Below are positions 13,813 to 63,249 of a stretch of DNA of 64,000 nucleotides, one piece after another. The stretch is from Tsuneonella litorea (GTDB lineage: Bacteria > Pseudomonadota > Alphaproteobacteria > Sphingomonadales > Sphingomonadaceae). The DNA lies in the NCBI RefSeq assembly GCF_025154015.1, contig NZ_JAOAMV010000006.1, positions 62,001-126,000 of the forward strand. Reading direction: 5' to 3'. A program made the position numbers and the translations under genes. The number at the start of each line of letters is the position of its first letter. Position 1 is the first letter of the stretch. The notes beneath the pieces are model-generated. The model saw only the letters and a list, made by a program, of their open reading frames with translations. It ran no database searches and was not told the origin of the DNA.

Positions 13813-14409
13813 TCAATCGTCACGTTTGTGGTGCTTGCCGCGGTGCCGCTCGCGCTTGCCGCGCCGGTCGCTGCGAGCATCGTTGCCGCGGGAATGGGAG
13901 GGCCGCTCGGCCCGCGTTTCGCGGTAGCGGCGCGGCGCCTCCGCATCGCCATGCCCGCCGCCGTGGTGCCGCGTCACCGCCGGTCGGCGGCCACCGTAAC
14001 GCCGTTCGCCATGCGCGTGCGAACGCTGGTCTCGGTAGCGATAGCGATCGGTGGCGGCGCGCCGGTCATGATGGCGAACCCCAGTCGCGGCGTGGTGATC
14101 GCCCCGCCGACGGTAATGGTAGCCGCTCCAGTTGTCGTGGACCCGGCGATCACCTCGGCGGGCCGTCCAGTAATGCCGATGCCGGTTCGACCAACGGTGG
14201 CGGTATCCCTGACGGTCCCAGACATAGTATCCGGACCCGGGGTAATAATATCCATCATACCATCCGTAATACGGATCTGAATAATATCCTGAACTGTATC
14301 CCACGGCGACCCGACTGTAACCGTAACCGTCCGGACCGTATGCTGAACATGCTCCCAGCGAAAGCCCGGCGATCGCAACGACGGCGGCGCGGACGGCAAG
14401 GGGGTGCAT
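13813..14409 (-). CDS. Tyr/Gly-rich then Arg/His-rich lipoprotein, unknown function
   Basis: A 198-aa predicted lipoprotein with lipobox LSLGAC (Cys 21). Residues 22-75 are unusually rich in Tyr and Gly (YSSGYYSDPYYGWYDGYYY). The remaining two thirds are extremely rich in Arg, His and Asp and look disordered and strongly basic. RcnB-type proteins of this order look partly similar, but I do not see a clear RcnB C-terminus. It follows the histidine kinase gene on the same strand, and a QseB-like box lies between them (14467-14481). Possible roles are binding of metal or an anionic polymer; both are guesses. Confidence 0.75.
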   Translation of the reverse strand: MHPLAVRAAVVAIAGLSLGACSAYGPDGYGYSRVAVGYSSGYYSDPYYGWYDGYYYPGSGYYVWDRQGYRHRWSNRHRHYWTARRGDRRVHDNWSGYHYRRRGDHHAATGVRHHDRRAATDRYRYRDQRSHAHGERRYGGRRPAVTRHHGGGHGDAEAPRRYRETRAERPSHSRGNDARSDRRGKRERHRGKHHKRDD

Positions 14410-14466
14410 AAATCTCTCCCGTTTGAACTGATCTTCAATCGGGAAATGCCAGTACTCAACGCGGCT

Positions 14467-14481
14467 TTAACTCAAACTGAA
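14467..14481 (-). promoter_or_regulatory. QseB/PmrA-like direct repeat upstream of the Tyr/Arg/His-rich lipoprotein
   Basis: On the minus strand TTCA-N7-TTAA forms a direct repeat with 11-bp period, 57 nt before the lipoprotein start. OmpR-family regulators of the PmrA/QseB group bind repeats of this spacing. A sister site is at 17022-17036. Confidence 0.4.
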
Positions 14482-14496
14482 CCCGCGCTTGATTGT

Positions 14497-15972
14497 TCAG
14501 GCAGTGACGCTTGCGGCCCGCGGCAGGATGAGCCGGACGAGCAATCCGCCAAGATCCTCGCTTTCTCCCAGCGTCACGCCGCCGCCATAGATCTCAGCCA
14601 CGTCGCGGACGATCGCCAGGCCCAGGCCGGTGCCCGGCTTGCCGGTGTCGAGCCGCGCACCGCGATCGAAGATGCGCGTGCGCTCGGCCTCGGGAATCCC
14701 CGTGCCGTCGTCCTCGACCCAGATGACGCAGGCGCTCTCCTCGGGTTCGGCATCGACGGTGACGAACACGCTGCCTCCGCCGTACTTGGCGGCGTTCTCG
14801 ATCAGGTTGCCGAGGATCTCGTCGAGGTCCTGCCGTTCGATGGCGACCCTGGCCACGCGATTGCCGGCAAGGTCGAAGCGCACCTCCGGATAGAGCCGCT
14901 CGACCGCGCGCCGGACGGCTTCGGCGCTTTCGCACACCGGTGTCGCCGCATGGCCGACCGCGCGGCGCCCGACCGCCCTTGCCCGCGCGAGGTGATGGTC
15001 GACATGACGGCGCATCGTCCCCGCCTCGCGGATCACCGTCGCCGGAAGGTCCGGCGCGTGCGCGGTCGCTGCGTTGTTGATGACCGTCAGCGGGGTCTTG
15101 AGCGCGTGAGCCAGGTTGCCCGCGTGCGTGCGCGCCTCTTCAGCCTGCCGTTCGGAATGCGCGAGCAACCCGTTCAGCTCCTCGACAAGCGGCTGGACTT
15201 CGAGCGGGAGCGGATCGGTCACCCGGTTGCGTCCGCTCGCGCGCATGTGCTGGATCGCCAGCCGCACCCCGCGCAAGGGACCGAGGCCGTACCACGTCTG
15301 CAGCATGGCCATCGTGAACAGGCCGAGGCCGAGCACCGCAAAGCTCCAGCCGAGAATCGAGCGGATGCGGCTGAGCTGCGAATCAAGCTCGCCCCGGCTG
15401 GCCGCCACCGTGAACCACCATCGCACGTCGCTGCCGGGCAGCTTGATCGAGCGTTCGGCGACCCGCAGCGGTTCCCCCGGAAACTGGTTCGAATCGTAGA
15501 TGTGCGTGGCCGAATCGGCGTGGTCGTGGCGCACTTGCAGCGTCCGGTCCCACAGGCTGCGGCTTGGATAATCCTCGTGCCCTTCGCCGCTGATCTGCCA
15601 GTAGAGGCCGCTGTTGGGCTCGAGGAAGCGCTGGTCCCCCAAGGGCCGGATGAAATAGACTTCGCCGTCCGAGGCGATCTCGGCCGAGGCGATCATGGCG
15701 GTGAGCATGTAGCCGAGCTGGTCGTCGAAGTTCTTCTCGACGAGGTTGGTCAGCGTCCGGTCGAGCGCGAAGCCGCCGGCGAGCAGCAGGATCGAAATCC
15801 AGCCGAACGCGATCAGCATCATCCGCCGCGACAGGCTTCCGGTGTGTGCCGGAACAGCCGGCGCGACCGTCACCGGGCCCTCGCCCGCACCCTCGAGGGG
15901 CGCGGCCGGAGACGCCGGCTCAGTTCGCGCGGGGCTGCTCGTCGGGGTCGTCGAGGCTGTAACCGAGTCCAC
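14497..15972 (-). CDS. Membrane sensor histidine kinase (partner of QseB-type regulator)
   Basis: Inner-membrane kinase of up to 491 aa. TM1 is MMLIAFGWISILLLAGG (about 43-60). A periplasmic sensor domain is followed by TM2 (about 205-228), a HAMP-like linker, a HisKA domain with the phospho-His in LAHALKTPLTVI (near 290), and an ATPase domain with NLIENAAKYGG, DDGTGIPE and GTGLGLAIV, all intact. The first 42 residues are low-complexity Pro/Thr/Ala and overlap the regulator gene by 53 bp; a later start is possible. It phosphorylates the regulator encoded just upstream. Confidence 0.93.
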   Translation of the reverse strand: MDSVTASTTPTSSPARTEPASPAAPLEGAGEGPVTVAPAVPAHTGSLSRRMMLIAFGWISILLLAGGFALDRTLTNLVEKNFDDQLGYMLTAMIASAEIASDGEVYFIRPLGDQRFLEPNSGLYWQISGEGHEDYPSRSLWDRTLQVRHDHADSATHIYDSNQFPGEPLRVAERSIKLPGSDVRWWFTVAASRGELDSQLSRIRSILGWSFAVLGLGLFTMAMLQTWYGLGPLRGVRLAIQHMRASGRNRVTDPLPLEVQPLVEELNGLLAHSERQAEEARTHAGNLAHALKTPLTVINNAATAHAPDLPATVIREAGTMRRHVDHHLARARAVGRRAVGHAATPVCESAEAVRRAVERLYPEVRFDLAGNRVARVAIERQDLDEILGNLIENAAKYGGGSVFVTVDAEPEESACVIWVEDDGTGIPEAERTRIFDRGARLDTGKPGTGLGLAIVRDVAEIYGGGVTLGESEDLGGLLVRLILPRAASVTA

Positions 15973-16600
15973 GGATCGTCGTTATCACATCGGCACCCAG
16001 TTTCTTGCGGATGCGGGTGACGAACACCTCGATCGTGTTCGAATCGCGGTCGAAGTCCTGATCGTAGATATGCTCGATCAGTTCGGTGCGGCTGACCACC
16101 TTGCCCTTGTGGTGCATCAGGTAGCTCAGCAGCTTGTATTCCTGCGCGGTCAGCTTGACCGGCTCGCCGTCGAGCGTGACGCGGCCCGAACGCGTGTCGA
16201 GCCGGACGGGACCGGCGGTGAGCTCGCTCGAGGTGTTGCCCGAGGCGCGGCGGATCAGCGCGCGCAGGCGGGCGATCAGTTCCTCGGTCTGGAACGGCTT
16301 GGCGAGGTAGTCGTCGGCCCCGGCGTCGAGCCCGGCGACCTTGTCCGACCACGAATCGCGCGCGGTGAGCACGAGGACAGGGAACTTTCGCCCTTCCTTG
16401 CGCCACATCCCGAGCACGGTGAGGCCGTCGATCTCGGGCAGGCCGAGGTCGAGGATCACGGCATCGTATTCCTCGGTACTGCCGAGGAAATGGCCGTCCT
16501 CGCCGTCGGTCGAAAGGTCGACCGCGTAACCGTTCTGTTCGAGAGTGGACTTGAGCTGCTTGCCGAGGGTCGGCTCGTCCTCGACGATCAGGATGCGCAT
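15920..16600 (-). CDS. OmpR-family response regulator, PmrA/QseB type
   Basis: A 226-aa two-domain regulator. The receiver has acidic pocket E7/D8, phospho-acceptor D51 (AVILDLGLPEIDG), and KPF near 101. The C-terminal winged helix is complete (LTAQEYKLLSYLMHHKGKVVSR, NTIEVFVTRIRKKLG, IRGLGYSL). The stretch LTARDSWSDKVAGLDAGADD is characteristic of the QseB/PmrA/TctD group. It is encoded between a PepSY gene and its kinase in one operon. Confidence 0.95.
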   Translation of the reverse strand: MRILIVEDEPTLGKQLKSTLEQNGYAVDLSTDGEDGHFLGSTEEYDAVILDLGLPEIDGLTVLGMWRKEGRKFPVLVLTARDSWSDKVAGLDAGADDYLAKPFQTEELIARLRALIRRASGNTSSELTAGPVRLDTRSGRVTLDGEPVKLTAQEYKLLSYLMHHKGKVVSRTELIEHIYDQDFDRDSNTIEVFVTRIRKKLGADVITTIRGLGYSLDDPDEQPRAN

Positions 16601-16687
16601 GGAGGGGTGGTCCCTGTTATCTTCTCCGCCCGGATGTGGGCGCTGAAGATGAACGCGTCAACCGACGCTGCGGTTTCCTTCGGGGGA

Positions 16688-16993
16688 TCAGCGCGATACG
16701 CCCAGCACCCGTCCGGTGCGCGCGTCGACGTCGACATAGGTGACCCGGCCGTCCTTGATGAACTTCAGGCGGTAGGCCATCGCCGTCGAATCATACGCCG
16801 GGCCGAGATATTCGGTGCCGCGCATTTGCGGCAGCACCCGGCCCTCGATTTCGCGCAGGCTCAGCACATTGCCGGCGCGCATTTCCTTGCGCGCCTCGCC
16901 CTGGTCGTTGCGCTGGGCCAGCGCGGGCGCGGCCGGCGCGAGTAGCGCGGCAGCGCCAAGGAGCGACAGGAAACGGGCGGCAGGCTTGGTCAT
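16688..16993 (-). CDS. Periplasmic PepSY-domain protein
   Basis: A 101-aa exported protein with signal peptide (MTKPAARFLSLLGAAALLAPAAPALA) and one PepSY module ending in YRLKFIKDGRVTYVDVDARTG. PepSY proteins are proposed to modulate peptidases or sensor proteins. It is the first gene before the regulator and kinase, 87 bp upstream of the regulator, so it may tune the kinase sensor domain; that is inference from context. A QseB-like box lies 29 bp before its start. Confidence 0.9.
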   Translation of the reverse strand: MTKPAARFLSLLGAAALLAPAAPALAQRNDQGEARKEMRAGNVLSLREIEGRVLPQMRGTEYLGPAYDSTAMAYRLKFIKDGRVTYVDVDARTGRVLGVSR

Positions 16994-17021
16994 GGTGCGA
17001 TGATGACTAGGCCGCGGGCAT

Positions 17022-17036
17022 TGAACAACCCGTGAA
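17022..17036 (-). promoter_or_regulatory. QseB/PmrA-like direct repeat upstream of the PepSY gene
   Basis: On the minus strand TTCA-N7-TTCA is a perfect direct repeat with 11-bp period. About 12 bases past it comes TAGTCA, a possible -10, so the repeat would cover the -35 region, as for PmrA/QseB activators. It suggests autoregulation of the operon. Confidence 0.45.
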
Positions 17037-61866: not shown

Positions 61867-63249
61867 CTATTCGGCCGGCTGCGCTACCGGATCGAACCCG
61901 CGCACCCGCACGCCGAGGCGCCGCTTGAGCCGCGTGAGCGGCGCGGTGACGAGGCCGTGCTCGCTCATCCACGCATGGTAGGCGCGGTACTTTGCATCCT
62001 CATGCCAGAGGTGGTCCTCCTCGGTCCGCGCGCGCCAGTAGTAGATCAGGTTGACCAGCAACAGGCTCGCCACGTTGCGCACCGCATCGGTCGCCGAGGC
62101 GTTGGTGACGAGGAACGGCAGCGTCGAGAGCCACCAGAACAGGTTCTTGCTGAGGTACGCGGGGTGCCGCGTGAAACGGTAGGGCCCATTCGTCAGCACC
62201 CCGCGATAGGTGAGGTTGGAGAACCGTAGCCCGAAGGCAACCGTCGCCCAGGCGTAGATGCCGGTGAGCGCCACCAGCAGCATGGCCCATATCCACATCA
62301 GCAGCGGCTGGCCGGCGAGCCAGACTGTCCAGTTCGCGTCGCCCTGCCCGGGCGTCCCGAACTCGTAGCCGAGCAGGCCCGAGCCCATAATCGCAAAGAC
62401 GAAGGGCGGATAGCACATCAGCGCGGCCAGCCAGCCGGCGAGATAGGGATTGCCGCTGCGGATGTGCGCGTCGAGCGGGCGGAATGTCATAAGGTAGCCG
62501 ACCGTTCCGATCTGCACGTCGACCAGGAACAGCAACGTGATCAGCGCCATGCCGATCGCCGCGGGATCGCGGGAGATGCTGGCAAAATCCGCGTTCACCG
62601 CGGCGGCGAACCCCGGCGGCAGGATCGAGATCATGAACGCGCCGAAGAACCCCTTGATGATCCACGCCCGCCAGTGCTTCTTAACCGCCTCGAAGTCGTG
62701 CGCCTCGCGCCCGAACAGCATGGCGCCGAAATGCCAGGACTGGTCGCGCGGGTTTTCCAGGTAGCGGTCGAGCCACATTACGTAGGGCACCGACAGCACG
62801 AACAGCGGGACCGCCGCAGCTTCGAGAACCCGCATCGCGAACAGGTATTGTCCGTCCCAGTACCAGCGCCCGAGCGCATAGGTACAGGCGAGGATGATCC
62901 ACGTCACCCACAGGCCCGCCAGCTTCACCAGCGACGTGCGTGCCGTCTGCGAAAGCGGCCGGCACCGCGACCAGTCGATGCCCGTCGAGGCGCGGCGGTG
63001 GACCTTGTCGACCATCAGCGAGACCGCCACCATCGGCGCGGTGGAGAACAGCATCGCGGCGACCGCGGCGTTCGGGCCGTCGAGCCGGGCGCGCGGTCCG
63101 GGGATGGCGACGGTTTCGGCGATCAGCGGCCAGTGGCGGCAGACCGCGATCCACGCGAAGAGGCCCGCAAGCCCCGCGAGCCCCACCCACGGCGAAACGT
63201 CGCTCTTAGGCGGAGCGTCAGGTAATGCGTGGGCACTCGCGTTCGTCAC
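61867..63249 (-). CDS. Multi-TM protein with C-terminal ICMT-like methyltransferase domain
   Basis: A 460-aa integral membrane protein. About eight to ten hydrophobic segments fill residues 20-320. The C-terminal part (about 325-445) has the isoprenylcysteine/phospholipid methyltransferase pattern: GVLTNGPYRFTRHPAYLSKNLFWW and a late EEDHLWHEDAKYRAYHAWM. SAM-dependent methylation of a lipid-like substrate is likely; identity unknown. The long N-terminal membrane region is unusual for ICMT. bamB is upstream on the same strand. Confidence 0.88.
   Translation of the reverse strand: MTNASAHALPDAPPKSDVSPWVGLAGLAGLFAWIAVCRHWPLIAETVAIPGPRARLDGPNAAVAAMLFSTAPMVAVSLMVDKVHRRASTGIDWSRCRPLSQTARTSLVKLAGLWVTWIILACTYALGRWYWDGQYLFAMRVLEAAAVPLFVLSVPYVMWLDRYLENPRDQSWHFGAMLFGREAHDFEAVKKHWRAWIIKGFFGAFMISILPPGFAAAVNADFASISRDPAAIGMALITLLFLVDVQIGTVGYLMTFRPLDAHIRSGNPYLAGWLAALMCYPPFVFAIMGSGLLGYEFGTPGQGDANWTVWLAGQPLLMWIWAMLLVALTGIYAWATVAFGLRFSNLTYRGVLTNGPYRFTRHPAYLSKNLFWWLSTLPFLVTNASATDAVRNVASLLLVNLIYYWRARTEEDHLWHEDAKYRAYHAWMSEHGLVTAPLTRLKRRLGVRVRGFDPVAQPAE

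Follow-up and report, generated by a model that had tools for sequence, protein, structure and literature searches.

Which regulator reads the two direct repeats that bracket a PepSY-regulator-kinase operon of Tsuneonella litorea, and is the lipoprotein gene at the far end of this locus one of its targets? The locus lies in a stretch of 64,000 nucleotides (positions 62,001 to 126,000 of contig NZ_JAOAMV010000006.1, assembly GCF_025154015.1; hereafter the window), in which four minus-strand genes follow one another in the order PepSY-like protein, response regulator, sensor histidine kinase, and lipoprotein. We hold, with a probability of roughly 0.8, that the locus encodes the Sphingomonadales version of the FeuN-FeuP-FeuQ system, i.e., an autoregulated FeuPQ-type two-component system that is tied to outer-membrane biogenesis.

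The first repeat, TTCACGGGTTGTTCA, is a FeuP-type box of the form TTCA-N7-TTCA at positions 17022–17036 (minus strand), 28 bases ahead of the PepSY start codon. The second, TTCAGTTTGAGTTAA, is a weak TTCA-N7-TTAA copy at positions 14467–14481 (minus strand), 5' of the lipoprotein gene and 57 bases from its start codon. The preliminary description had placed both repeats at these positions, on the minus strand and with an 11-base period, and we found them as described. When both strands of the 64 kb were searched for TTCA-N7-TTMA, these were the only two matches (0.39 expected), and two or more matches were seen in 3 of 100 shuffles of the window. Because the pattern was picked after the fact, two sites in 64 kb are modest evidence, and it is conservation that decides.

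We gathered 110 operon loci, consisting of the best-ranked 30 of 199 genomes with a kinase match and the best 80 of 567 named loci, and removed identical upstream regions. This left 100 distinct regions, which still include related species and are thus not independent. The box precedes the PepSY gene in 98 of the 100; in the remaining two, one region reads TTCAGGCGCTATCAA (L040) and the other ends at a contig end (L077). The site upstream of the PepSY gene has therefore been kept among relatives with the same operon, the outcome on which the earlier proposal of a regulator site had been made to depend. At a spacing of 7, the box was found at 76 of 77 PepSY genes of the named loci, and the 200 bases upstream of five control genes in these loci gave 0/72, 0/73, 0/71, 0/79, and 2/39 (SIMPL); one control gene, that of chorismate mutase, gave 12/71 at a spacing of 5. 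The consensus of 97 PepSY segments (one of the 98, L080, was dropped as a duplicate segment) is [CT]ATTCA-N6-GTTCAA-N11-TAGGCA, then ATG. A TA stands at +12 from the second half-site in 88 of these 97 promoters, and the ATG at offset 43 from the box start in 67. In the window, the corresponding −10-like element is TAGTCA (17004–17009, minus strand), which begins 12 bases past the second half-site and is followed by 10 bases and then the start codon. From this fixed geometry we predict that the operon mRNA probably has no leader or almost none, with transcription beginning near 16997. A matrix trained on the 97 promoters scores the window PepSY box at 43.4 bits. Judged from their conservation, the boxes are very probably sites of the regulator, and the PepSY-regulator-kinase operon is probably autoregulated.

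The regulator itself (15920–16600, minus strand) is an OmpR-family protein and an orthologue of FeuP, with 66% identity to the Sinorhizobium meliloti protein over 219 residues. When this genome was searched with FeuP, the window regulator ranked first (66%) and the next match reached 42%. In the opposite direction, a search of the S. meliloti record CP090106.1 reached E 1e-50 at the annotated feuP and nowhere else; this record holds part of the genome and is annotated with feuN-feuP-feuQ. The kinase encoded next to the regulator (14497–15972, minus strand; 2CSK_N and HATPase_c domains) is FeuQ-like, with 32% identity to FeuQ over 430 columns (E 4e-55). The recognition-helix stretch reads DRDSNTIEVFVTRIRKKL in the window regulator and DRDSNTIEVFIGRLRKKI in FeuP, which have DRDSNTIEVF in common, and EPATNTLEVHIHNLREKI in BasR, where BasR/PmrA carry EPATNTLEVH instead.

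These results bear on the label given in the preliminary description, which had assigned the regulator to the PmrA/QseB (BasR) type. Both groups belong to the OmpR family, the best-scoring NCBIfam models for the window regulator are PmrA and QseB, and BasR is its nearest solved structure by sequence. However, the two scores fall far below the equivalog cut-offs (PmrA, 225.2 of 330 bits; QseB, 222 of 345 bits), and both the identity to FeuP and the recognition-helix stretch point away from PmrA. PmrA binds a direct repeat that also has an 11-base period, but its half-site is TTAA and differs from the TTCA found here, which is the half-site of the proposed FeuP motif. We therefore abandoned the PmrA/QseB label and consider a system of that type highly improbable.

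The feuN promoter in CP090106.1 reads TTCATTTGCCATTCA-N12-TAATGA, i.e., TTCA-N7-TTCA-N12-TA, the same geometry as in the window. In excerpts of PMC3616915, TTCA-N7-TTCA (Motif 3) is reported before 12 S. meliloti genes, five of them FeuP-dependent, and also before feuN, and is proposed as the FeuP site; a literature search with the string TTCA-N7-TTCA found no further paper. Class-wide, 67 of 289 genomes contain a regulator match at E 1e-60, and from these 67 we hand-picked 20 neighborhoods whose regulators share 63–71% identity with that of the window. TTCA-N7-TTCA occurs in 15 of the 20, in 14 within 800 bases and in one at −824. The PepSY protein of the window found a match at E 2e-6 or better by tblastn in 5 of the 20.

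Another member of the OmpR family may instead recognize the repeat, with CtrA as the prime candidate; its S. meliloti site is given as TAA-N7-TTAAC in excerpts of PMC3616915. CtrA shares the spacing of 7, one half of the repeat at 14467–14481 is TTAA, and eight regulator genes of this genome, the window's included, match FeuP. However, in the PepSY boxes the first half-site is TTCA in 98 of 98 although TTAA was allowed, and the second is TTCA in 95 of 98; among the 30 lipoprotein homologues considered below, both halves are TTCA in 19. Moreover, the most conserved box known here precedes the regulator's own operon, as it does at feuN of S. meliloti. We thus regard a different reader of the repeat as quite improbable. 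CenR was also considered as the identity of the regulator and rejected, since its motif, TGA-N8-TGA, differs from TTCA-N7-TTCA.

The lipoprotein (13813–14409, minus strand) has 198 residues, is rich in Tyr, Arg, and His, and carries the lipobox LGAC, as read by eye. It has no Pfam or NCBIfam match, and its structural model (mean predicted local distance difference test, pLDDT, 52.6) is too poor for a fold search. Homologues were found in 48 of 199 family genomes, and we analyzed the 130 bases before the start of the best 30 of these 48, the window's own copy included. TTCA-N7-TTMA occurs in 20 of the 30 (shuffle mean 0.10) and TTMA-N7-TTMA in 21 (shuffle mean 0.19), while spacings other than 7 yield 0 to 2; a TA stands at +12 in 11 of the 21 boxes. 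These counts support the lipoprotein as a frequent predicted target in the family. The preliminary description had proposed the lipoprotein as a target of the system, and at the family level the proposal agrees with the exact box in 21 of 30 homologues, but the window's own site is a weak copy, with a matrix score of −5.0 and the seventh rank in the window.

The position of the kinase gene matters here. Exact boxes precede 15 of the 16 copies without a kinase match in the fetched stretch (the kinase is known to lie elsewhere for 10 of these, and its place is unlisted for the other 6), versus just 6 of the 14 copies within about 2 kb of the kinase (Fisher p 0.004, uncorrected for kinship), so that conservation of the lipoprotein site, unlike that of the PepSY site, is confirmed in part only. 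With its TTAA half and its low score, the window site belongs to the weaker near-kinase set. This contrast would fit a relaxed need for the box when the operon promoter is close. It would also fit an alternative in which autoregulation through the PepSY box is genuine but the window lipoprotein site is a relic or a chance match; transcription from the operon promoter would then run on past the kinase into the lipoprotein gene, which lies directly downstream on the same strand. The details of the sites speak against this alternative: a −10-like TACTGG (14449–14454, minus strand) is found at +12, 12 bases past the second half-site of the window lipoprotein box, which would place a transcription start near 14442, and among the 9 homologues that lack an exact box there are 6, each encoded close to the kinase, that keep a site with one mismatch in its second half, 62–69 bases from the start. 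Since such a near-match occurs in 7% of shuffled regions, the 6 sites resemble drift from a real site. We judge the relic explanation possible, if on the unlikely side.

The FeuP-type reading also predicts targets elsewhere in the genome. We found 40 sites in the T. litorea genome; in the 38 unique ones, a TA stands at +12 in 10, where about 0.9 are expected. Gene calls were made for 19 of the 40 sites. The genes behind own-genome sites include those for LolA, BamD, BamE, a trypsin-type protease, M48, M16, and S8 peptidases, CvpA, a CAP protein, SIMPL, DUF4136, a TPR_21 protein, and DUF2141. Ornithine decarboxylase, a penicillinase repressor, and an exonuclease are without an evident envelope role, and others have no family. 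In 13 family genomes, the pattern with a TA at +12 gave a sum of 77 matches versus 17 for the reversed pattern, and 10 congeners gave a sum of 98 matches with a TA at +12 or +13. The 15-mers of bamD, M16, and M48 are identical in all 10 congeners, and for ornithine decarboxylase and DUF4136 they differ by at most two mismatches in all 10; the downstream gene was checked only in the fetched congener loci.

We followed lolA and bamD through a family draw of 59 genomes from 58 genera, of which the top 30 and the next 20 were examined and 9 were not fetched. The lolA box is present in 46 of the 50 (27 of the 30 best-ranked and 19 of the next 20), with a TA at +12 in 15 of 30 regions, and also in Qipengyuania citrea, Sphingopyxis indica, and Sphingomonas parapaucimobilis. 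The bamD box is present in 23 of the 30 best-ranked genomes and, as read from these regions, holds a TTGGCG-type −35 element between its halves.

Three side observations were made among the sites. The box before ornithine decarboxylase (L156; congener loci L231, L239, L256, and L267) has an embedded TTG-type −35 element, and this gene is an unexpected target for an envelope regulator. Sites resembling TTCAAAGNGCNTTCA (e.g., G487:C1:1136940 and G490:C5:96760) recur in several congeners and are absent among the own-genome sites. One own-genome site (L167), a TTCA-N7-TTCA with a TA at +12, precedes a short open reading frame that looks like a Phd/YefM antitoxin by eye.

Several results weigh against a FeuP-type system with an outer-membrane target set, beginning with the weak window lipoprotein site and the rarity of exact boxes near the kinase. 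The reversed control pattern also matches, at 16 versus 40 sites in the own genome; the control still gives 30 versus 98 in the 10 congeners, and in eight genomes of other families in the order the signal is less clear, one of them having 17 reversed versus 20 forward matches. One own-genome site falls in 23S rRNA. With the strict pattern, sites within two mismatches were found in 3 of 10 congeners for lolA, 6 of 10 for the PepSY box, 5 of 10 for the penicillinase repressor, 2 of 10 for CAP, and 1 of 10 for CvpA. The lolA genes of S. meliloti and Azospirillum lipoferum are without the box. The bamD box occurs in just 3 of the 20 lower-ranked genomes, none of the three resembling the usual site; because 4 of the 30 best-ranked bamD regions lack the box but keep a −35-like CTTGGCG and the bamD TA lies at +13, not +12, part of the bamD conservation is that of a core promoter. 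At the class level, TTCA-N7-TTCA was not found in 5 of the 20 picked neighborhoods, and around less similar regulators (49–64% identity) it was found in just 6 of 18. The lipoprotein was not found in the three congeners among the 199 genomes, and neither BLASTP nor hhalign detected any similarity between the PepSY protein and FeuN, a comparison that used a single FeuN sequence and involved short, divergent proteins.

In the mechanism that we propose, a head-to-tail dimer of the phosphorylated regulator would occupy the repeat, cover the −35 region, and recruit RNA polymerase. A repeat over the −35 region with a −10 element at a fixed 12 bases is the arrangement that one would expect if an OmpR-family dimer activates transcription at the polymerase. 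The regulator would thereby activate the operon that encodes it together with several envelope genes, namely lolA, bamD, the secreted M48 and M16 peptidases, and the DUF4136 lipoprotein, and, where present, the Tyr/Arg/His-rich lipoprotein would be a further activated target. The signal may be some disturbance of the outer membrane or periplasm. A bolder extension is that the system serves as the main outer-membrane biogenesis stress response of the Sphingomonadales, in the role that sigma-E and Cpx have in enterobacteria, and that the lipoprotein is an NlpE-like sensor reporting failing lipoprotein transport by LolA to the system; we regard this extension as speculative and improbable.

The locus thus belongs to an already known class of systems, of which it is a variant marked by a PepSY-like protein and by predicted targets in outer-membrane biogenesis. 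It shares with FeuNPQ of S. meliloti the gene order, the regulator, the kinase, and the TTCA-N7-TTCA box with a TA at +12 before the first gene; it differs in that the operon starts with a PepSY-like protein rather than a FeuN-like sequence, and in the lolA box, which is present in Sphingomonadales and not in the S. meliloti record. In S. meliloti, the reported FeuP targets include ndvA (excerpts of PMC3616915), and excerpts of PMC5929573 associate feuNPQ with the production of cyclic glucans. At the very strict threshold of E 1e-200, TIGR01192, the NdvA family, matches nothing in this genome and 1 of 289 class genomes, one from an order with two genomes in the sample, and the box was not found in the fetched stretch around this sole match. 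DbfQ-DbfR-DbfS of Vibrio cholerae likewise has a small secreted PepSY protein encoded beside its kinase and regulator (excerpts of PMC12714742), and the window locus is laid out like the DbfQRS-like modules defined there, with a PepSY protein within four genes of the kinase or regulator; the terms FeuN and Alphaproteobacteria were not found in that paper. CenKR of Rhodobacter sphaeroides is another alphaproteobacterial OmpR-type system with an envelope regulon, but its motif is TGA-N8-TGA (excerpts of PMC9275681), not the TTCA-N7-TTCA of the window. No earlier description was found of FeuP with lolA, or, judged by title, of a Sphingomonadales envelope-stress two-component system with FeuP, in a search that missed most subscription papers. 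Our results suggest that a control circuit about which little is known acts on the cell surface in this bacterial group, and they provide sphingomonads with a predicted regulator, a predicted binding site, and a target list for outer-membrane assembly. They also add evolutionary evidence from another order to an S. meliloti motif proposed from expression data, and suggest that a single regulator has retained its recognition sequence as part of its target set was replaced.

The PepSY-like protein (16688–16993, minus strand) has 101 residues, is probably secreted, and occupies the place of FeuN. It scores 22.2 bits against PF03413, below the cut-off of 24. Its AlphaFold model has a mean pLDDT of 85, and the best structural matches are 4exr (Z 9.1), YpmB (Z 7.5), and YpeB (Z 7.4); the comparison tool warns that a Z under 8 may reflect a common arrangement, and no Foldseek match reached E 0.001. 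YpmB and YpeB are presumably PepSY proteins, and the three matches support a PepSY fold for the modeled protein. In Sphingomonas parapaucimobilis, the protein in the same operon place is annotated as PepSY domain-containing. FeuN was considered as a PepSY protein as well, which the BLASTP and hhalign comparisons with its single sequence did not support. By analogy with FeuN (as quoted in excerpts of PMC12486126) and DbfQ (excerpts of PMC12714742), the PepSY protein is likely a periplasmic feedback modulator; a modulator role in the periplasm had also been suggested in the preliminary description. It would bind the periplasmic part of the kinase and hold the kinase down, and induction of its own gene would therefore close a negative feedback loop. 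In other genomes of the class, some small proteins encoded upstream of the regulator (L183, L202, L204, and L206) have long Arg/Gly- or Gly/Ser-rich tails, which recall the low-complexity body of the lipoprotein.

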